The notes under the pieces were generated by a model. That model did no database searches, was not told the origin of the DNA, and saw only the letters and a list, made by a program, of their open reading frames with translations. Below are positions 630 to 36,413 of a DNA stretch of 64,000 bases, in pieces. The stretch's first letter is position 1. Each line of letters starts with the position of its first letter. The position numbers and the translations under genes are program-made. The DNA comes from Agromyces cerinus subsp. cerinus. Lineage in GTDB: Bacteria > Actinomycetota > Actinomycetes > Actinomycetales > Microbacteriaceae. The DNA lies in assembly GCF_900142065.1 (NCBI RefSeq), contig NZ_FSRJ01000001.1, positions 992,001 through 1,056,000 on the forward strand, given 5' to 3'.

Positions 630-2042
630 ATGACCACCGAAGACGCCCCGCACCTCGACGAGCTCATCGCCTCGTGGCGCGACTGGATCGAGCGGCGCGA
701 CGCCCTGAGCATCCGTGACGTCGACGAACTCGAATCGCACCTGCGCGATCGCGTCGACGCCCTCTCAGCAGCAGGGCTCACCGACGACGAGGCGTTCCTC
801 ATCGCGGTCAAGCGCCTCGGCAGCATGGACGAGCTCTCGCGCGAGTATGCAGCCGAGCATTCGGGTCGGCTGTGGAAGCAGCTCGTGCTCCACGACTCGT
901 CGGACTCCGAGGGCACGGATGCCTCGGACGGCACGATGCCGTTCGTGCGGCGCGCAAACGGGCTCACGATCGCCCTCCTGCTCGGTGTCGGCGCCGGGAT
1001 CGCGGTGAAGGCGACCGAGCTGCTCACCGGCGATCCGGAACTCGTCTTCCGGAACATCGCCGTCCTCGTACTGCCATTCCTGGCCGCATGGTTCGCCTGG
1101 CGGCGGCGACCGCCGATCGGCACGCTGCTCGGCGTCGCCGCGACCTTCGCGCTCGTGGCGCTCGCACTGAACCTCTACCCGTTCGACGGAGGATCCTCGA
1201 CCGTCACGGTCGCGACGCAGAACTCCGCCACCGCGGTGCTCGCGACCATCGGCTCGATCGTCGCACTCTGGCTCGTCACGGGCATCGTCGACGCAGGCGG
1301 TGCCTGGCGGAGCGACCGTACTCGGATGGACTTCCTGCGTTTCAGCGGTGAGTGGCTCGTCTACTACGTGCTCATCGCGATCGTGGGCGGCGCCCTGAGC
1401 GGGCTCACCGTCGCGGTGTTCGCGTCGATCCAGGTCGACATCGCGCCGTTCATCGTCGAGTGGGTGCTGCCGTGCGGGGCTGCGGGCGCGGTGCTCGTCT
1501 CCGCCTGGCTCGTCGGCGCGAAGCAACGCGTCATCGAGAACATCGCCCCGGTGCTCACGAAGGTGTTCACTCCGCTCTTCACGCTCATGATGCTTGCACT
1601 CATCGTGGCATCCGTCATGCAGTGGAACCTCGTCGGCGGCAGCCGTGAGCTGCTCATCGCCTTCGACCTCGTGCTCGTCGTGGTCGTCGCGCTCCTCGTG
1701 TACGCGATCTCGGCGCGCGACCCCGCGCTTGCCCCCGGCTGGTTCGATCGCCTGCAGGTGCTCATGCTCGTGGCAGCGCTCGTCGTCGATGTCATCGTGC
1801 TCGTCGCGATGATCGCCCGCACGGGCGAGTTCGGATTCAGCGCGAACAAGACGGCGTCACTCGGGCTGAACCTCATCCTTCTCGCCAACCTCGCGTGGGC
1901 CACTTGGCTGCAGATCGGCTTCGTGCGTCGGCGCGTGCCATTCGGTCGTGTCGAGTCGTGGCAGACCGCGTACCTCCCGGTCTACCTCGCCTGGGCGGCG
2001 ATCCTGGTGTTCGCCTTCCCGCCGATGTTCGACTTCGCGTGA
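630..2042 (+). CDS. Multi-pass membrane protein with permease prefix/HAAS-type N-terminal domain
   Basis: A 470-residue protein. Residues 1-95 form a soluble helical domain (IRDVDELESHLRDRVDALSA, then LTDDEAFLIAVKRLGSMDEL) matching the HAAS/permease prefix domain that accompanies PadR regulators. From about residue 110 to the end there are roughly ten hydrophobic segments with short polar loops, so it is an integral membrane protein. No transport motif, ATPase motif or catalytic residues were recognised. It starts 3 bases after the PadR stop and must be co-transcribed with it. The likely role is as an envelope sensor or effector controlled by that repressor; this is inferred from gene pairing only. 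Confidence 0.8.
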   Translation: MTTEDAPHLDELIASWRDWIERRDALSIRDVDELESHLRDRVDALSAAGLTDDEAFLIAVKRLGSMDELSREYAAEHSGRLWKQLVLHDSSDSEGTDASDGTMPFVRRANGLTIALLLGVGAGIAVKATELLTGDPELVFRNIAVLVLPFLAAWFAWRRRPPIGTLLGVAATFALVALALNLYPFDGGSSTVTVATQNSATAVLATIGSIVALWLVTGIVDAGGAWRSDRTRMDFLRFSGEWLVYYVLIAIVGGALSGLTVAVFASIQVDIAPFIVEWVLPCGAAGAVLVSAWLVGAKQRVIENIAPVLTKVFTPLFTLMMLALIVASVMQWNLVGGSRELLIAFDLVLVVVVALLVYAISARDPALAPGWFDRLQVLMLVAALVVDVIVLVAMIARTGEFGFSANKTASLGLNLILLANLAWATWLQIGFVRRRVPFGRVESWQTAYLPVYLAWAAILVFAFPPMFDFA

Positions 2043-2093
2043 CCCCCCTCGGCCGCAGCCTGCTCGAGCGACGGCATAGGCGATGATTGGTGC

Positions 2094-2627
2094 ATGGCAG
2101 CCGAGCGCGAAAGTGCGATCGTTGTCGAGCTCTCGGAGTTCGACGAGGTCCTCGATGACCACCGGAAGGCGCTCGACCCCTCCCGGGCGTGGGGAATGCC
2201 GGCGCATCTCACCATGCTCTACCCGTTCGTGCGACCGGCTGAGGTGAATCACACCACGCTGTCGAGGCTCGAAGACCTGGCGATGAAGGTGAGCCCGTTC
2301 GATGCCGTCTTCGACGATTTCGGTTGGTTCGCCGATCAGGTGGTCTGGCTCGCACCGTCGCAACCGGAGAAGTTCGAGCGCCTTATCCGCCAGGTGGTCG
2401 ACGCGTTTCCCGAGTGCTCCCCATACGGCGGGGCACACGACGACGTGATCCCTCATGTGACCATCGGCGATGGAGGCGATCCGGAACTCATGCGTGCTGC
2501 GGCGAATGCGATTCGTCCTCGGCTTCCGCTCACGACGAGAGTCGCGTCTCTCAGCCTCATGGCGGGATCGAGGGAACCAGGATCTTGGCAGGTCGTCGAA
2601 CGAGTGAGTCTCGGTCGCACCCGATAG
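2094..2627 (+). CDS. 2H phosphoesterase / 2'-5' RNA ligase family protein
   Basis: A 177-residue soluble protein with the two His-x-Thr signatures of the 2H superfamily: PAHLTMLYPF near residues 37-46 and IPHVTIG near 120-126. Family members (LigT/ThpR, AKAP7-like) hydrolyse cyclic phosphates or 2'-5' linkages in RNA or nucleotides. The spacing between the two HxT motifs fits the family. The gene stands alone on the plus strand. A GATGAT element 6 bases before the ATG suggests a leaderless transcript, but this hexamer lacks the first T of TANNNT. The substrate cannot be told from sequence. Confidence 0.8.
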   Translation: MAAERESAIVVELSEFDEVLDDHRKALDPSRAWGMPAHLTMLYPFVRPAEVNHTTLSRLEDLAMKVSPFDAVFDDFGWFADQVVWLAPSQPEKFERLIRQVVDAFPECSPYGGAHDDVIPHVTIGDGGDPELMRAAANAIRPRLPLTTRVASLSLMAGSREPGSWQVVERVSLGRTR

Positions 2628-2750
2628 CGATGCGGTGCGGCTCGGTCGCCACCGGTCGATGAAGCAGCCGCGAAATGTCGGGACCGACTCAGGCGACGGC
2701 CCTCGTAGCGCGGAAGAACACCAGGCCCCGCCAGCGCTCCCCGCACGAGG

Positions 2751-3365
2751 TCAGTCCCGATACGCCGCCAAGAAGACGCGGACGCCGGATTCCAACCCTG
2801 ACTCGACCTCAGCTTCGGTGATCGCGTCGAACCGCCCGGTCATCATGATGCGGTTGCTCGGGATCCAGAGCAGCAGACCGGCCAGGTGATTCGCCGCGAT
2901 TCGCGGATCGTCGACGTGCAGCCAGCCGCGCTCGCTCGCGCTGGCGAGCAGATCGGCCATGTGGCCGAGGGTGAGCTCGAACGCCCCTTCGTAGTAGGCG
3001 CGGCCGATGTCGGGGAAGCGTGCAGCTTCGGCGATGACGAGTCGGCGGAATCGTTGCACCCGACGATCGAGCACCGAGGCGCTCAGGAGTCGGGCAAGTG
3101 CCCGCACGACCGCTTCCCCGTCGTCGTAGGCGTCGATGTCGAGGCGCACGATCGAGTCGTGCACCCGGTCGACGACATCGGAGATCAGCGCCCGGAACAG
3201 CCCCTCCTTGTCGCCGAAGTACTTGTAGACGGTCTGCTTCGATGCTGCTGCCGTTGCGGCGATCACATCGGTGCTCGCGCCCGTGTATCCGTCGAGGACG
3301 AATGCGTCCAACGCGGCGTTCAAGATGCGAGCGCGAGTCGCCTCGACCCGTGGATTGGTGTTCAT
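2751..3365 (-). CDS. TetR/AcrR family transcriptional regulator
   Basis: A 204-residue repressor. The N-terminal TetR helix-turn-helix is intact: RARILNAALDAFVLDGYTG (about residues 9-27) and AATAAASKQTVYKYFGDKEGLFRALI (about 33-58). The C-terminal domain resembles the AcrR/TetR_C dimerisation fold. The frame is open further upstream, but the ATG at 3365 is preceded by GGAGGAG and begins in the usual MNTNPRVEATRARI style, so that start is chosen. It diverges from an alpha/beta hydrolase across an 81-base region packed with dyads, so it very likely controls both directions. The inducer is unknown. Confidence 0.9.
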   Translation of the reverse strand: MNTNPRVEATRARILNAALDAFVLDGYTGASTDVIAATAAASKQTVYKYFGDKEGLFRALISDVVDRVHDSIVRLDIDAYDDGEAVVRALARLLSASVLDRRVQRFRRLVIAEAARFPDIGRAYYEGAFELTLGHMADLLASASERGWLHVDDPRIAANHLAGLLLWIPSNRIMMTGRFDAITEAEVESGLESGVRVFLAAYRD

Positions 3366-30374: not shown

Positions 30375-32453
30375 TCACGCGTCGATGCGGTCGCGCTCGA
30401 GCGAGTCGGAACTCTCGATGATGAACTCCTTGCGCGGCGCGACATCCGTGCCCATGAGCAGCTCGAACACGCGCCCGGCGTTCTCGGCATCGCCGATGCC
30501 GACCCGGCGCAGTGTGCGGTGCCGGCGATCCATGGTCGTGGTCGCGAGCTGATCGGCATCCATCTCGCCGAGGCCCTTGTATCGCTGGATCGGGTCCTGG
30601 TAGCGCTTCTTCTGCCGGTCGAGCGTCGCGAGGACCCCCTTGAGCTCGGCCTCCGAATAGGTGTAGATCGTCTCGTTCGGCTTCGAACCGGGGTTGATCA
30701 CGACGACCCGGTGCAGCGGCGGCACGGCGGCGAACACCCGGCCGTGCTCGATCATCGGCCGCATGTAGCGGAAGAACAGGGTGAGCAGCAGTGTGCGGAT
30801 GTGCGCGCCGTCGACGTCGGCGTCGGCCATGAGGATGACCTTGCCGTAGCGAGCGGCCTCGAGGTCGAAGCTCCGGCCCGAGCCGGCACCGATCACCTGG
30901 ATGATCGACGCGCACTCGGCGTTCGCGAGCATGTCGGCGACGCTGGCCTTCTGCACGTTGAGGATCTTGCCGCGAATCGGCAGCAGCGCCTGGTGCTCGC
31001 TGTCGCGCGCGAGCTTGGCGGTGCCGAGCGCGGAGTCGCCCTCGACGATGAACAGCTCACTGTGCGAGACGTCGTTCGAGCGGCAGTCGACGAGCTTCGC
31101 AGGCAGCGACGAGCTCTCGAGCGCGTTCTTGCGCCGCTGCGTCTCTTTGTGCGCACGGGCGGAGATCCGCGACTTCATCTCGGCGACGACCTTGTCGAGC
31201 AGCAGGGCCGCCTGGTTCTTGTCGTCGCGCTTCGTGGAGGTGAAGCGGGCTCCGAGCTCCTTCGTCAGCACGGTCGAGACGATGGAGCGCGCCGCGGGCG
31301 TGCCGAGCACCTCTTTCGTCTGGCCCTCGAACTGCGGCTCGGGCAGGCGCACCGTGACCACCGCGGTGAGTCCCGCGAGCACGTCGTCCTTCTCGAGCTT
31401 GTCGTTGCCGGCCTTGAGGCGTCGAGCGTTCAGCTCGACCTGCTGGCGCAGGAACTTGAGGAGCCCCTGGTCGAAGCCGGCCTGGTGCGTGCCGCCCTTG
31501 GGCGTCGCGATGATGTTCACGAACGAGCGGATGACCGTGTCATAGCCGGTGCCCCAACGCAGGGCGATGTCGACCACGCACTCGCGCTTCAGTTCCGTCG
31601 GCACCATCGCACCGCCCTCGGTGAGCACGGGCACGGTCTCGGTGAAGTGGCCGGTGCCGGTCAGACGCCACACATCGGTGAGCGGGGCGTCGGTCGCGAG
31701 GTGCTCGACGAACTCGGAGATGCCGCCATCGAACTGGAACGAGGTCGTGTGCGGGGTCTCGCCGCGCTCGTCGTTGACGTCGATTGCGAGCCCGGGAACG
31801 AGGAACGCCGTCTGCCGCGCGCGACCCAGCAGCTCTTCGGTCTGGAACTCGGCGCCCTTCGTGAAGATCTGGCGATCGGCCCAGTAGCGGATGCGCGTGC
31901 CGGTGACGCCCTTGGCCACCTTGCCGACGACCCGGAGCTCGCTGCGCTGCTCGAACGGCGTGAACGGCGCGTCGGGAGACGGCGCGCCCGAATCGGCGAA
32001 GTTGCCGGGCTCGCCCCGGTGGAACGACATGGCCCACGTCTTGCCGTCGCGGTCGACCTCGACGTCGAGACGTTCGGAGAGCGCATTGACGACGGATGCG
32101 CCGACACCGTGGAGGCCGCCGGAGGCCGCGTAGGAGCCGGAACCGAACTTGCCGCCCGCGTGCAGCTTGGTGAACACGACCTCGACGCCCGACAGGCCGG
32201 TCTTCGGCTCGATGTCGACCGGGATGCCGCGCGCACGGTCGCGCACCTCGACGCTGCCGTCGGGGTGGAGGGTCACGCCGATCTCGGTGCCATGGCCCGC
32301 GAGCGACTCGTCGACCGAGTTGTCGATGATCTCCCAGAGGCAGTGCATGAGGCCCCGGGAGTCGGTCGAACCGATGTACATGCCGGGTCGCTTGCGCACG
32401 GCCTCGAGGCCCTCGAGCACGGAGAGATGGCGGGCGGAATAGTCGGAGCTCAC
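30375..32453 (-). CDS. parE: DNA topoisomerase IV subunit B (GyrB/ParE type)
   Basis: A 692-residue ATPase subunit. The GHKL ATP site has YSARHLSVLEGLEAVRKRP, IIDNSVDESLAG and GLHGVGASVVNALS. TOPRIM metal motifs are LFIVEGDSALG and MADADVDGAHIRTLLL, and the tail QRYKGLGEMDADQL is conserved. It works with ParC in decatenation. An in-frame upstream extension exists, but the GTG at 32453 gives the usual SSDYSARHLSVLEGLEAVRK start. It is transcribed toward parC, from which it is separated by a flavoenzyme and protease block. Confidence 0.94.
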   Translation of the reverse strand: MSSDYSARHLSVLEGLEAVRKRPGMYIGSTDSRGLMHCLWEIIDNSVDESLAGHGTEIGVTLHPDGSVEVRDRARGIPVDIEPKTGLSGVEVVFTKLHAGGKFGSGSYAASGGLHGVGASVVNALSERLDVEVDRDGKTWAMSFHRGEPGNFADSGAPSPDAPFTPFEQRSELRVVGKVAKGVTGTRIRYWADRQIFTKGAEFQTEELLGRARQTAFLVPGLAIDVNDERGETPHTTSFQFDGGISEFVEHLATDAPLTDVWRLTGTGHFTETVPVLTEGGAMVPTELKRECVVDIALRWGTGYDTVIRSFVNIIATPKGGTHQAGFDQGLLKFLRQQVELNARRLKAGNDKLEKDDVLAGLTAVVTVRLPEPQFEGQTKEVLGTPAARSIVSTVLTKELGARFTSTKRDDKNQAALLLDKVVAEMKSRISARAHKETQRRKNALESSSLPAKLVDCRSNDVSHSELFIVEGDSALGTAKLARDSEHQALLPIRGKILNVQKASVADMLANAECASIIQVIGAGSGRSFDLEAARYGKVILMADADVDGAHIRTLLLTLFFRYMRPMIEHGRVFAAVPPLHRVVVINPGSKPNETIYTYSEAELKGVLATLDRQKKRYQDPIQRYKGLGEMDADQLATTTMDRRHRTLRRVGIGDAENAGRVFELLMGTDVAPRKEFIIESSDSLERDRIDA

Positions 32454-32599
32454 GTCGATCAAGCCTACTGAGCTGCACCGACACATCCGGTCAGCCACTA
32501 CGCGCTGAGCGAAATGCCCGGCCCAACGGAAGGAACCTGCCCGGAGTCGTGTTTTCATTGATGAACGGAACACCACGCATGAGCGACGAAGGAGGAGCC

Positions 32600-32833
32600 A
32601 TGACCCAGTACACCGAGACCACCGGTGCGGTCGATGAACTCGAGACCCCTTACGAGCTCACCGCGCTCGATCGATGCGATGCCTGCGGCGCGCAGGCGTA
32701 CATCCGCGTCGTCGTCGCGAGCGGCGAACTGCTGTTCTGCGCCCACCACGGCCGCAAGCACCAGGAGAAGCTCTCGCAGATCGCGCACAGCTGGCACGAC
32801 GAGTCGAGCAAGCTGCTCGCCGACCGCAGCTGA
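32600..32833 (+). CDS. DUF7455-type small zinc-ribbon protein
   Basis: A 77-residue actinobacterial protein. CDACGAQAYIRVVVASGELLFC-x-HH is a C-x2-C...C-x2-H ribbon in the middle; the ends are polar. This family is found next to sigA/parE-type genes in Actinobacteria; its role is not known. The ATG at 32600 has a near-perfect AAGGAGG six bases upstream, which decides the start over in-frame ATGs at 32549 and 32579. Followed by a strong bidirectional terminator. Confidence 0.88.
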   Translation: MTQYTETTGAVDELETPYELTALDRCDACGAQAYIRVVVASGELLFCAHHGRKHQEKLSQIAHSWHDESSKLLADRS

Positions 32834-32968: not shown

Positions 32969-33700
32969 TCAGGACTCGGAGACGCCTGCGGCGGCCAGCT
33001 GCGCGGCACGAGCGGCCGACGCGTAGGCATCGACGGTCTGCGCACGCTCGCCGACGACGTACTCGAGCCCGGCACGAGCGGCCATGGTCTCGAGCAGGCG
33101 ATCGGCGAACACGGGGTTCTTGGCGAGCACCGGGCCGTGGAGGTGGGTGCCGTGGACGTCGCCCATGACCGCGCCCTCCTGACCGGAGTCGCGGCCGTTG
33201 CCGTGCCCGGCACGGATGCGGCCGAGCGGGGATGCCTCGGCGCCCACGTAGTCGCGGGCGTGGTTCTCGAATCCGACGAGCATGCCGAAGCGCGGACTCT
33301 TCACGACGACGTCGCCGGTCACGCGGTTCGCGCGAGGCACCGAGCGGCCGGGCAGGATGCCGAGGCCCTCGATGCTCCGGCCGCTTGCGAGTTCGATGCC
33401 CCAGCTGAGCAGTTCCCAGCCGGTGCCGATGGAGAGGATCGGAACGCCCTCGGTGCCCCAACGGCGGAACTCGTCGTGCATCGTGAGGAGCAGTTCGCGG
33501 CTCTCGTCGAGCGACGAGTCGCTGCCCGAGCCGAGCACGATCGCGTCGACGCGGGGCGGCAGTTGCGCGGCCGTCTCCGCCTCCACGACCGTGGCGTCGA
33601 GGCCGGCCCATCGTGCACGCGTCGCGAGCACCCGGGCGTTCTCGGCGTCGCCGTTCGTGTTCTGGAGTCGGGGAAGCAACGAGACGATCGTGAGGGTCAT
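32969..33700 (-). CDS. gatD: GatD-like amidotransferase subunit lacking the catalytic cysteine
   Basis: A 243-residue class I glutamine amidotransferase-like protein, the partner of MurT. GatD landmarks are present: IEGLGILPGRS, ANRVTGDVVV, FGMLVGFENHARD and THLHGPVLAKNP with the catalytic-type His. But the nucleophile elbow, normally ICGGYQ in GatD (Cys94 in S. aureus, from memory), reads IGTGWE here (Gly92 at the Cys position, Glu for Gln). Glutamine hydrolysis should be impossible. The rest of the fold is well conserved, so it is not a decayed gene. ATG overlaps the murT stop (ATGA). See findings for the proposed meaning. Confidence 0.88.
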   Translation of the reverse strand: MTLTIVSLLPRLQNTNGDAENARVLATRARWAGLDATVVEAETAAQLPPRVDAIVLGSGSDSSLDESRELLLTMHDEFRRWGTEGVPILSIGTGWELLSWGIELASGRSIEGLGILPGRSVPRANRVTGDVVVKSPRFGMLVGFENHARDYVGAEASPLGRIRAGHGNGRDSGQEGAVMGDVHGTHLHGPVLAKNPVFADRLLETMAARAGLEYVVGERAQTVDAYASAARAAQLAAAGVSES

Positions 33701-34953
33701 TCTGCTCCAGCGAGTCCGAGGTGGGCACGTGTGCGGCGCATGGCGTCGGCGGTGAAGACGATCGTCTTGACGCCGGAGGCGGGCGCCGGCATCGCCAGGA
33801 ACGCGTCGACGGCGGTGCCGAGGTCGGGCTCGACGCGGTCGATCTCGACGCCGTCGTAGGCGAGCATGAGCGCGGCCTCGGCCGACTTCGAGCCGCTCAC
33901 GATCGAGACGCGGCCGAGTGAACCGGCATCCGTCGGCCAGAAATAGGAGGGGTCGCGCACGTCGGAACCGATCGCGAACATGATCTGCTCGGTGCCCGGC
34001 GCGATGCTGTCGACGTTGAGCTGGTAGCTCGCCGGGTTCTGCACGAGCACGAACTCGACGTCATGGCCGCGAACGGTGGTGCGCTCGCCACGACCGAACA
34101 CGGCGGGGATCGCGCTCAGCGCGTCGGCCGCGGTCGAGCTCGAGAAGCGGTCGCCGAGCACCGCCTTCGCGGTGGCGTACGCGGCCGCCGCGTCCACGGC
34201 GTAGTGCACGCCGCGTGCCGGCAGGCCGATCGAGACGGATGCCCCGGCATCGTCGAGCACCGCGGAGGCGCCGTCGACCGTCTCGACGAGCACGTCGGTG
34301 CCGCTCGAGAGGCGGACGTCGCTCGTCTCGGTGTACCCGAGGCCTCGCGGGGATGCCGCGAGCACCGCGTCGGTGACGCCGAACCGGTGCACGGCGACTC
34401 CGGGCTGCACCCGGGCGGCGAGCCGCTCGAGGTAGGCGTCGTCGGCGTTCACGACGATCGACTCGCCGGCGCGCGCCGCGATGCGCGCGAGCATGGAGGC
34501 GACCATCTCGGAGTCGTGGAATCGGTCGATCTGGTCGACCATGACGTTCGTCAGGCACACGACGCGCGCATCGACGCCCTGCATGACGAGGGCGCCGTGG
34601 CCCTCGTCCATCTCGAGCACCGCGACGTCGCCGGGCACGCGACCCTGCCAATCGGCCTGCTCGAGCAGTGCCGAGGTCAGACCCTGGCTGATGTTCGCCG
34701 TCGACGGGTTGGTGAACACGTCGACGCCGTGGGCGCGAAGGATCGCGACGAGCATCTTGGTCGTCGTCGACTTGCCGCTCGATCCGGAGACGACGACGAG
34801 TCCCTGCGGGAAGCCCGAGAGCGTGCGCTTCAGGTATTTCGGGGCGATTCGGTTGACGACGAGGCCGGGAACAGCCGATCCGCCGCCGGGCTTGCGCAGC
34901 CGGGCGGCGAATCGGGTGAGCCTGCCGACGAGGATCGCCGGCGCGTAGCGCAC
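33697..34953 (-). CDS. murT: MurT-like Mur ligase family protein (zinc ribbon absent)
   Basis: A 418-residue Mur-ligase fold protein with the C-terminal DUF1727 domain. The P-loop reads VSGSSGKSTTTK (about 55-66) in place of GTNGKTTT; NPSTANISQGLTSALL, LEMDEGHGALVMQ and VCLTNVMVDQIDRFHD follow the MurT pattern. The Cys4 zinc ribbon of known MurT proteins is missing: the central region (about 200-260) has no Cys. The DUF1727 motif around SWIWD reads DPSYFWP. It normally activates the D-Glu alpha-carboxyl of lipid II for GatD-supplied ammonia. GTG at 34953, 7 bases after the sigA stop, with AGTAGG upstream. Confidence 0.88.
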   Translation of the reverse strand: MRYAPAILVGRLTRFAARLRKPGGGSAVPGLVVNRIAPKYLKRTLSGFPQGLVVVSGSSGKSTTTKMLVAILRAHGVDVFTNPSTANISQGLTSALLEQADWQGRVPGDVAVLEMDEGHGALVMQGVDARVVCLTNVMVDQIDRFHDSEMVASMLARIAARAGESIVVNADDAYLERLAARVQPGVAVHRFGVTDAVLAASPRGLGYTETSDVRLSSGTDVLVETVDGASAVLDDAGASVSIGLPARGVHYAVDAAAAYATAKAVLGDRFSSSTAADALSAIPAVFGRGERTTVRGHDVEFVLVQNPASYQLNVDSIAPGTEQIMFAIGSDVRDPSYFWPTDAGSLGRVSIVSGSKSAEAALMLAYDGVEIDRVEPDLGTAVDAFLAMPAPASGVKTIVFTADAMRRTRAHLGLAGAE

Positions 34954-34960
34954 TCGCGGC

Positions 34961-36250
34961 CTACTCGAGGTAGTCGCGGAGCGACTGCGAACGCGAGGGG
35001 TGACGCAGCTTCGCCATCGTCTTCGACTCGATCTGGCGGATGCGCTCACGCGTGACCCCGAAGGTGTCGCCGATCTGATCGAGGGTCTTCGGCATGCCGT
35101 CGCCGAGGCCGAAGCGCATGCGGATCACGCCCGCCTCGCGCTCGCTCAGCGAGTCGAGGAGCGACTCGAGCTGCTTCTGCAGCATCGTGAAGCCCACCGC
35201 GTCGGCCGGTACGACCGCCTCGGTGTCCTCGATGAGGTCGCCGAACTCGCTGTCGCCGTCTTCACCGAGGGGCGTGTGCAGCGAGATGGGCTCGCGGCCG
35301 TACTTCTGCACCTCGATGACCTTCTCGGGGGTCATGTCGAGCTCGCGGCTCAGCTCTTCGGGCGTGGGCTCGCGGCCCAGGTCCTGCAGCATCTGACGCT
35401 GCACGCGGGCGAGCTTGTTGATGACCTCGACCATGTGCACCGGGATGCGGATGGTGCGCGCCTGGTCGGCCATGGCGCGGGTGATCGCCTGACGGATCCA
35501 CCACGTCGCGTACGTCGAGAACTTGAAGCCCTTGGTGTAGTCGAACTTCTCGACGGCGCGGATGAGACCGAGGTTGCCCTCTTGGATGAGGTCGAGGAAC
35601 TGCATGCCGCGACCCGTGTAGCGCTTGGCGAGCGAGACCACGAGGCGGAGGTTGGCGCCGAGCAGGTGGCTCTTGGCGCGCTGGCCGTCTTTCGCGACCC
35701 ACTGCAGCTCACGACCGAGCTGCGAGCGCTTCTCGGCGTCGGTCATGTGCGAGAGCTTCTCTTCGGCGAACAGGCCCGCCTCGATGCGCATCGCGAGCTC
35801 GACCTCTTCGGCCGCGTTCAGGAGCGCGACCTTTCCGATCTGCTTCAGGTAGTCCTTGACGGGGTCGGCCGTCGCGCCGGTGATGGCGCTCGAGTAGACC
35901 GGAACCTCGTCTTCGTCGTCGACGGCGCGCAGCACGAGGGCACCGGTGGGGTGCGGCTCGACTGCGACGGTCTTCGTGTCGTCGTCATCGCCGTCGGCAG
36001 CCGAGTCCTCGGCACCCTCGGCGATCTCGAGGTCGACGACCTCTTCGCCTTCATCGTCGTCGCTCTTCGCCTTCGCCTTGGCTCGGGGCTTGGTCGCGGT
36101 CTTCGCGGTGGTAGCGCGAGGCGTCTTCGCCGCGGGGGTGGCCGCGGCCTTCGCCGGCGTCTTCGCGGCGGCCGACTTCGCGGCGGTCGCGCGCTTCGCA
36201 GCGGGCTTCTCCGCCTCGCTCGCAGCCGTCGCGGCTTTCGTCGTTGCCAT
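34961..36250 (-). CDS. sigA: Principal RNA polymerase sigma factor
   Basis: A 429-residue group 1 sigma-70. After a Lys/Ala/Pro-rich, histone-like N-terminus (about 1-70) and an acidic stretch (about 70-100) come region 1.2 ([21 protein letters not shown]), region 2 ([30 protein letters not shown], split over 2.1-2.3; [16 protein letters not shown]), region 3 and region 4 ([26 protein letters not shown]). It recognises the TANNNT boxes seen throughout this window. ATG 36250 with GGAGAGG upstream; longer in-frame readings are rejected. Confidence 0.96.
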
Positions 36251-36407
36251 TCGTTGAACCTCTCCTACCGTTGTGCCCGCGTGCCCTCGCGGACTCGGCT
36301 CATGCACTCGGTCCGGTCGTTTTCGGACACTATGAGGACCCATGTCAAGTCCGCTGCATCGGCATGGTCTTTCACCACGCCAGCGGGCCAGAACGGGTCC
36401 TGCCCCC

Positions 36408-36413
36408 ATTATA
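36408..36413 (-). promoter_or_regulatory. Putative sigA -10 box
   Basis: A perfect TATAAT on the minus strand (GTCTGTATAATGGG), about 158 bases before the sigA ATG. No -35 match at 17 or 18 bases. It is the only consensus -10 in the 250-base region before sigA; the leader would be about 150 bases. Confidence 0.45.

Follow-up and report, generated by a model that had tools for sequence, protein, structure and literature searches.

A MurT/GatD-type protein pair encoded by Agromyces cerinus subsp. cerinus is, together with the other members of its clade (here referred to as class 2), probably a D-Glu α-carboxyl:amino acid ligase of peptidoglycan precursor synthesis. Across this whole clade the catalytic Cys of GatD has been lost and the ligase site of MurT is conserved, and the chromosomal slot in which the pair resides is used in other genomes by a second ligase system, the two being mutually exclusive. 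The odds that we give to the ligase reading rest on genome counts and on nine genera in which both systems occur. The original prediction envisioned a repurposed D-Glu ligase that accepts an amino acid and thereby starts the type B cross-bridge. It is supported in part: the clade-wide Cys loss, the exclusion of a CofE-like ligase at the same locus, nearby racemase genes and a changed amino-acid motif of MurT speak for it, while a repurposing-related loss of the zinc ribbon is not supported and Cys loss does not track type B walls one-to-one.

In the window, i.e., the entire stretch of 64,000 nucleotides that was analyzed, both genes are located on the minus strand. The gatD gene (32969..33700; 243 amino acids) encodes a GATase_3 subunit without the catalytic Cys, a putative pseudo-glutaminase, and murT (about 33697..34953; 418 amino acids from a GTG start codon) encodes a Mur ligase with an intact ATP site; the murT stop and the gatD start codon overlap in an ATGA (33697..33700, minus strand). 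The GATase_3 fold is present in the GatD protein, which aligns nearly end to end with the S. aureus GatD (PDB accession code 5n9m; E-value 8e-27), a comparison that, like our other PDB comparisons, was a second look at a Foldseek match. Here, the segment LSIGTGWELL faces LTICGGYQFL of S. aureus, and Gly92 (codon 33425..33427, minus strand) thus occupies the position of the catalytic Cys94; the segment GTHLHGPVL retains the catalytic His (His188, codon 33137..33139, minus strand; His189 in S. aureus). The MurT protein has the P-loop GSSGKS with Lys61 (codon 34771..34773, minus strand), the motif RDPSYFWP, and no CxxC motif; its Asp334 (codon 33952..33954, minus strand) corresponds to MurT Asp349, the third residue of the catalytic triad. 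Hence, the replacement of Cys by Gly92, the retention of the His, and the lack of the Cys4 ribbon, all three noticed in the original prediction, are confirmed.

Both proteins remain far below the NCBIfam equivalog cut-offs of the MurT/GatD isoglutaminyl synthase (GatD, 112.5 versus 450 bits; MurT, 84.6 versus 800 bits). The Mur_ligase_M domain is recognized in MurT with 51 bits (cut-off 24), and the MurT_C domain scores 22 bits against a cut-off of 25 (25.3 bits in the genome search). MurT_C finds a single match in the window genome, and the remaining matches of PF07685 are three non-GatD proteins, which we take from their sequences to be PdxT, PurQ and HisH; a Cys-bearing GatD that could rescue the pair was therefore not found. 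An intact second gatD gene, which the prediction had named as a finding that would speak against it, was not found in the Agromyces window genome by the PF07685 and MurT_C searches, and neither was a second MurT.

To assess how widely the Cys has been lost, we fetched 78 loci, chosen to span genera, from those 137 of the 199 genomes of the family in which a profile search found MurT_C matches. The pairs fall into three classes. Class 1, the canonical one, possesses both the Cys and the His in all 32 GatD loci (15 within the family, 17 outside of it). Class 2, to which the window pair belongs, has the Cys in none of 95 GatD loci (36 from Agromyces, 59 from other genera); the site is occupied by Gly in all 36 Agromyces loci, and by Gly (41), Ala (14), Ser (2), Asn (1) or Thr (1) in the others. 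The catalytic His is kept in 36 of 36 Agromyces loci and in 39 of the 59 loci from other genera, and is lost in the remaining 20. In class 3, the Cys site carries His (8) or Gly (1), the catalytic His is present in none of the nine loci, and the MurT proteins contain CxxC motifs. Four short or unclear loci, none with the Cys, were set apart, and gatD was not found in one further locus (L125). A GatD match was present in 85 of 120 relatives and, within the same genus, in 57 of 59 (the misses being G021 and G051 (77% complete)). Class-3 loci were seen at L195:4470-6577, L062 and L083-L090, the first of these in the chromosomal slot described below; several of these genomes also have an ATP-grasp gene.

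The database relatives agree with this division. Among the 120 relatives of the window GatD that were listed, 116 have Gly at the site and four were not read by the pattern, and the Cys is present in 120 of 120 class-1 GatD relatives among the matches listed, including proteins named Leucobacter, Lysinibacter and Canibacter. The Cys in the GatD proteins read from these three genera counts against the ligase reading. A Cys-less GatD cannot serve as a universal mark of the family, which also holds Cys-bearing GatDs and genomes without MurT. When 297 sampled genomes of the order were searched with the class-2 MurT profile, scores above 430 bits were reached in genomes of the family only (best score outside, 419.9 bits); judged by this score, class 2 was not seen outside the family, which bears on a wide occurrence of Cys-less GatDs in organisms with amidated type A peptidoglycan, likewise named as a potential objection. 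Classes 1 and 2 are present together in four genomes (G160, G172, G229, G267), another observation that counts against the ligase reading.

In a MurT tree of 111 rows, built by a quick method, with some long branches and with six of the 36 Agromyces loci, the 69 class-2 rows are set apart by a single branch with a support of 100. Next to them stand ribbonless, Cys-bearing rows, and class 3 is placed elsewhere, among ribbon-bearing rows, so that the Cys has probably been lost twice; class 3 apparently represents an independent loss of the glutaminase. The tree also bears on the zinc ribbon, the loss of which had been regarded as part of the repurposing. This part of the prediction was rejected: CxxC is absent from the matched stretch in Cys-bearing MurTs of four other families of the same order (f3, f4, f6, f18) and in 13 of 15 Cys-bearing loci of the family itself. 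In keeping with this, the ribbon has been found in only a subset of bacteria, as stated in an excerpt of PMC6113224.

The same source, as far as its excerpted text goes, reports that the C94S and C94G variants of the S. aureus GatD abolish lipid II amidation and that the MurT variant D349N severely reduces it (PMC6113224). Because the two Cys variants are inactive, the class-2 GatD can be viewed as the equivalent of a dead mutant. That another residue replaces the Cys and allows the pair to amidate from glutamine after all is an idea to which we give almost no credence; the GatD fold, the His and the Asp are intact in Agromyces, but the occupant of the Cys site varies between five amino acids across the clade, the His has disappeared as well from a third of the loci outside Agromyces, and two of the replacements found there, Ser and Gly, are those that inactivate the S. 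aureus enzyme. The kept equivalent of Asp349 and, in Agromyces, the kept His nevertheless sit awkwardly with a dead glutaminase.

The catalytic center of MurT is strictly conserved. Lys61, Glu114, Asp116, Arg144 and Asp334 are identical in 65 of 65 class-2 and 21 of 21 class-1 rows, in a comparison from which 28 of the listed loci (partial, duplicate, long-branch, ribbon-bearing or of class 3) were excluded and in which Agromyces was represented by six loci; the invariance thus includes the Asp of the triad, despite the loss of the Cys. Ten columns switch between the two classes, each being conserved to at least 85% within either class. Two of these, Ser309 and Gln311 in class 2, lie within a motif that changes from NPAG..R to NPAS.Q; in addition, Asn313 is found in 65 of 65 class-2 rows and is variable in class 1. 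This NPA motif may correspond to the amino-acid motif D(D,N)P(N,A) of MurE, which is mentioned in connection with conservation mapping in an excerpt of PMC6113224.

Judged from the conserved residues and the family to which it belongs, MurT would bind ATP and activate the α-carboxyl group of D-Glu, residue 2 of the stem peptide, as an acyl phosphate in the same manner as the amidating MurT/GatD enzymes. GatD, lacking the Cys whose replacement inactivates the S. aureus protein, would no longer hydrolyze glutamine and may have been retained for a structural purpose, covering the active site of MurT like a lid. The vacant position of the nucleophile could then be taken by an amino acid; a D-diamino acid is the most likely candidate (in Agromyces, D-2,4-diaminobutyrate), and the predicted product carries the first residue of the type B bridge on the D-Glu α-carboxyl group, a residue that would be the only one of the bridge in B2-γ walls.

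The genomic surroundings of the pair are well defined. Upstream, murT is bordered by a gene on the minus strand (34961..36409) whose product we take from its sequence to be a sigA-like sigma factor; downstream, gatD is followed by a gene for a small DUF7455 protein (32549..32833, plus strand) and by a parE/gyrB-like topoisomerase subunit gene (30375..32576, minus strand), a match for which is present in 28 of 28 chosen genomes of the family. When 20 class-2 genomes were read over about 19-19.5 kb, sigA adjoined murT in all 20, and DUF7455 and parE were found in 19 and 18, respectively; G070 and G183 carry the parE-DUF7455 block in inverted orientation. The slot was also read in 20 further genomes, mostly without a MurT match. 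Thirteen of these (L177, L178, L180-L182, L185-L192) contain in its place a gene for a CofE-like protein of about 233 residues, accompanied by an ATP-grasp protein in 11 and by Alr-like genes in eight; one genome (G216; L195) has class 3 in the slot, and six (L179, L183, L184, L193, L194, L196) possess neither system there. In L183 (G155, a genome without a MurT or CofE-like match), an insert of about 2.5 kb is present in the slot (about 700-3240). Four loci from genomes without MurT may be given as examples of the alternative gene content: L178:3861-7396, L177:6206-8005, L188:5479-7265 and L190:869-4516 all contain the CofE-like and ATP-grasp genes, and L178 and L190 also the Alr-like pair. 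The 80 best-matching CofE-like loci out of 402 relatives almost all bear the name Microbacterium; sigA is present in 79 of them, and parE lies within the stretch covered in 72. Agromyces seonyuensis, too, has the CofE-like genotype. A locus titled Stenotrophomonas maltophilia P13 (L199) has a slot of the Microbacterium type and probably reflects contamination.

CofE, the F420-0:L-glutamate ligase (PF01996), is an amide ligase with an amino acid as the nucleophile and is unrelated to MurT. The slot protein is a relative of this enzyme (45.6 and 56.7 bits with PF01996 in the two proteins scanned; cut-off 25) and falls far short of the CofE equivalog cut-off (35.8 versus 180.65 bits in one protein). 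Across the 199 genomes of the family, the class-2 MurT profile detects a MurT of any class in 163 (123 at 430 bits or more), and the CofE-like profile yields 27 strong (323-464 bits) and three weak (126-141 bits) matches. A strong CofE-like match and a MurT are never present in the same genome (0 of 199; Fisher p 5.5e-26, ignoring kinship). Neither system is found in nine genomes, and this counts against the ligase reading. The exclusion is not absolute, since it breaks down at weak CofE-like scores: such matches occur beside MurT in G159 and G228 (class 3; the CofE-like gene is located nearby) and in G251 (class 2). Cys loss, although clade-wide, does not track type B walls one-to-one, given the 27 strong CofE-like genomes without a MurT match (a genotype mostly found under the name Microbacterium) and the Cys-bearing GatDs of Leucobacter, Lysinibacter and Canibacter.

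The exclusion also holds at the genus level. Of the 179 genomes of genus g115, 34 possess class 2 and 144 the CofE-like gene, with both in none and neither in one; we infer that g115 is Microbacterium, as the genus is large and the named best-matching CofE-like loci are nearly all Microbacterium. Both states occur in different species within nine genera (g1, g7, g9, g13, g88, g105, g107, g114, g115), which indicates that the slot has switched recurrently, and at least 12 switches are needed on a parE tree of 113 rows. A sign test on this tree (six independent supported pairs; CofE-like changing in the opposite direction in 5-6 and in the same direction in none; p 0.03-0.06) was set aside because a single slot label per row made the outcome 'same way' impossible and the named loci had been read at the slot and not genome-wide; all that can be taken from it is that a slot without class 2 tends to hold a CofE-like gene rather than nothing.

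ATP-grasp profile matches are present in 36 of the 199 family genomes, 34 of them strong. The latter comprise 25 of the 27 strong CofE-like genomes (the exceptions, G142 and G164, carry Alr-like genes), seven genomes of the class-3 type (G068, G138, G212, G223, G232, G277, G284; class 3 was read in L062, L085, L088 and L083 and deduced from MurT_C scores for G138, G232 and G277), and G124 and G204 of genus g49, the former with class 2. This distribution implies that class 2 is normally not accompanied by a second ligase. Ten of the 20 class-2 regions contain Alr-like genes in the vicinity of the pair, nine with both ALRc and ALRfull and one (G668) with ALRfull only; they are about 4.7 kb away in G674 and on the opposite strand in G161 and G134, and putative Leifsonia and Diaminobutyricibacter are among their carriers. 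In Pfam, one protein of the Alr-like pair is recognized by the C-terminal Alr domain alone and its partner by both the N- and the C-terminal domain; the two may thus form a heterodimeric racemase that has a single active site. A further point against the ligase reading is that a slot-type racemase was not found in the window genome, whose two Alr matches score 379 and 239 bits versus 514-555 bits for five slot genes (430 bits in G161). Three other Agromyces genomes are similar; together with the window genome, their Alr matches range from 239 to 388 bits, below all slot genes (430-555 bits).

Since the 1970s, peptidoglycan of type B has served taxonomists as a hallmark. In such walls, as Schleifer and Kandler reportedly described in 1972, the α-carboxyl group of D-Glu sits in the bridge, the B2-γ bridge being a single D-2,4-diaminobutyrate (Dab) and the bridges of Microbacterium beginning with Gly. 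On these bridge structures, the single ligase of class 2 would match a bridge of one residue, and the CofE-like protein together with the ATP-grasp ligase a bridge of two. One could imagine instead that MurT amidates D-Glu with free ammonium and that GatD is a mere scaffold. The conserved MurT site, the Asp349 equivalent and the often retained His would suit such an enzyme, but we consider it unlikely, as it leaves unexplained the exclusion of the CofE-like amide ligase at the same locus, the racemase genes near some pairs and the co-existence with a Cys-bearing pair in four genomes, quite apart from the involvement of the α-carboxyl group in the bridge.

Under the preferred reading, an amino acid ligase, the chemotypes would be expected to follow gene content. 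Leucobacter, whose GatDs read here bear the Cys, is usually placed in group B. Dab walls are not known to be as frequent in Microbacterium as class 2 is in g115, so that Dab is probably not the only substrate, and a one-to-one link between class 2 and Dab walls is not upheld. Genera with a named class-2 MurT or GatD include some with B2-γ Dab walls, i.e., Herbiconiux, Agromyces, Leifsonia and Rathayibacter. The following wall types are taken from excerpts of the cited papers: B2-γ for Agromyces aureus (PMC5217419), B2-γ with D- and L-Dab for Herbiconiux (PMC10011130), B2-γ with 3-hydroxyglutamate for Subtercola (PMC5945732), B2-γ with Dab for Clavibacter, including species later moved to Rathayibacter and Leifsonia, the latter being a Dab genus in a title cited there (PMC5882085), L-Lys, D-Orn or Dab for Microbacterium (PMC10757982), Dab or D-Orn for Gulosibacter (PMC6113628), and B2-β for Rhodoluna (PMC4156110); wall types by genus are tabulated in PMC7033078.

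The racemase pair was considered as a predictor of D-Orn or L-Lys within Microbacterium, with evidence on both sides. In favor, it is present in five of five loci of M. testaceum, three of three of M. oxydans, and one each of M. algeriense and M. maritypicum, and it is absent from the M. lacticum locus L260. The wall of M. maritypicum contains D-Orn, and that of M. lacticum contains L-Lys. Two conflicts were noted with wall types given in literature excerpts: M. radiodurans L203 lacks the pair despite a reported D-Orn, and the pair is found in M. enclense L212 despite a reported L-Lys (a second M. enclense locus, L237, was left unscored since the DNA beyond the CofE-like gene is another region). 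D-Orn is reported for M. testaceum, M. oxydans and M. algeriense in an excerpt of PMC10757982. These data bear on the proposal that the slot serves the amidation of another glutamate-containing molecule, the type B link being a coincidence of family membership. Its appeal lies in the facts that the slot-wall link rests on comparison, that CofE proper acts on coenzyme F420, and that chemotypes were matched mostly by genus (most species of the wall papers differ from the genomes searched), with exceptions in M. radiodurans and one strain of M. enclense. We nevertheless deem it improbable: both its fold and its family mark MurT as a ligase of the peptidoglycan type, bridge synthesis would account for a slot with two ligases and amino-acid racemases, and the racemase pair accompanies nine of nine loci of the three D-Orn species M. 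testaceum, M. oxydans and M. algeriense and the M. maritypicum locus.

If the ligase reading is extended to the whole slot, the sigA-parE region would be the type B cross-bridge locus of the Microbacteriaceae, a broader proposal for which we see the chances as evenly balanced. The first ligase would have arisen there three times independently, as class 2, as class 3 (these two having lost the glutaminase separately) and as the CofE-like protein; the three would be interchangeable, each attaching the initial amino acid of the bridge to the D-Glu α-carboxyl group; ATP-grasp enzymes would add residues, one ligase per residue, the Alr-like pair with its one degenerate subunit would supply the D-diamino acid, and gene content would predict the chemotype.

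The closest described system, the MurT/GatD lipid II isoglutaminyl synthase (S. aureus 6gs2/6h5e, S. pneumoniae 6fqb, S. pyogenes 9sqj), shares with class 2 the two folds, the paired genes, the ATP site and the Asp349 equivalent, and with the Agromyces proteins also the His; class 2 differs from it by the clade-wide lack of the catalytic Cys, the changed residues of the amino-acid motif, the racemase genes near some pairs, and the exclusivity with the CofE-like ligase. The MurC/D/E/F and pseudomurein pMur ligases, which to our knowledge have no GatD partner, build the main stem, unlike the bridge role proposed here. We found no description in the open-access literature of the enzyme that joins the type B bridge to D-Glu. 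The pair thus provides a testable two-gene candidate for this ligase, along with an unrelated replacement at the same locus; if correct, an amidotransferase can turn into an amino acid ligase by losing its glutaminase, and wall chemistry would become predictable from gene content. Seven Microbacterium loci (L198, L200, L203, L246, L263, L268, L274) carry two ATP-grasp genes beside the CofE-like gene and no racemase match, and possibly form longer bridges.
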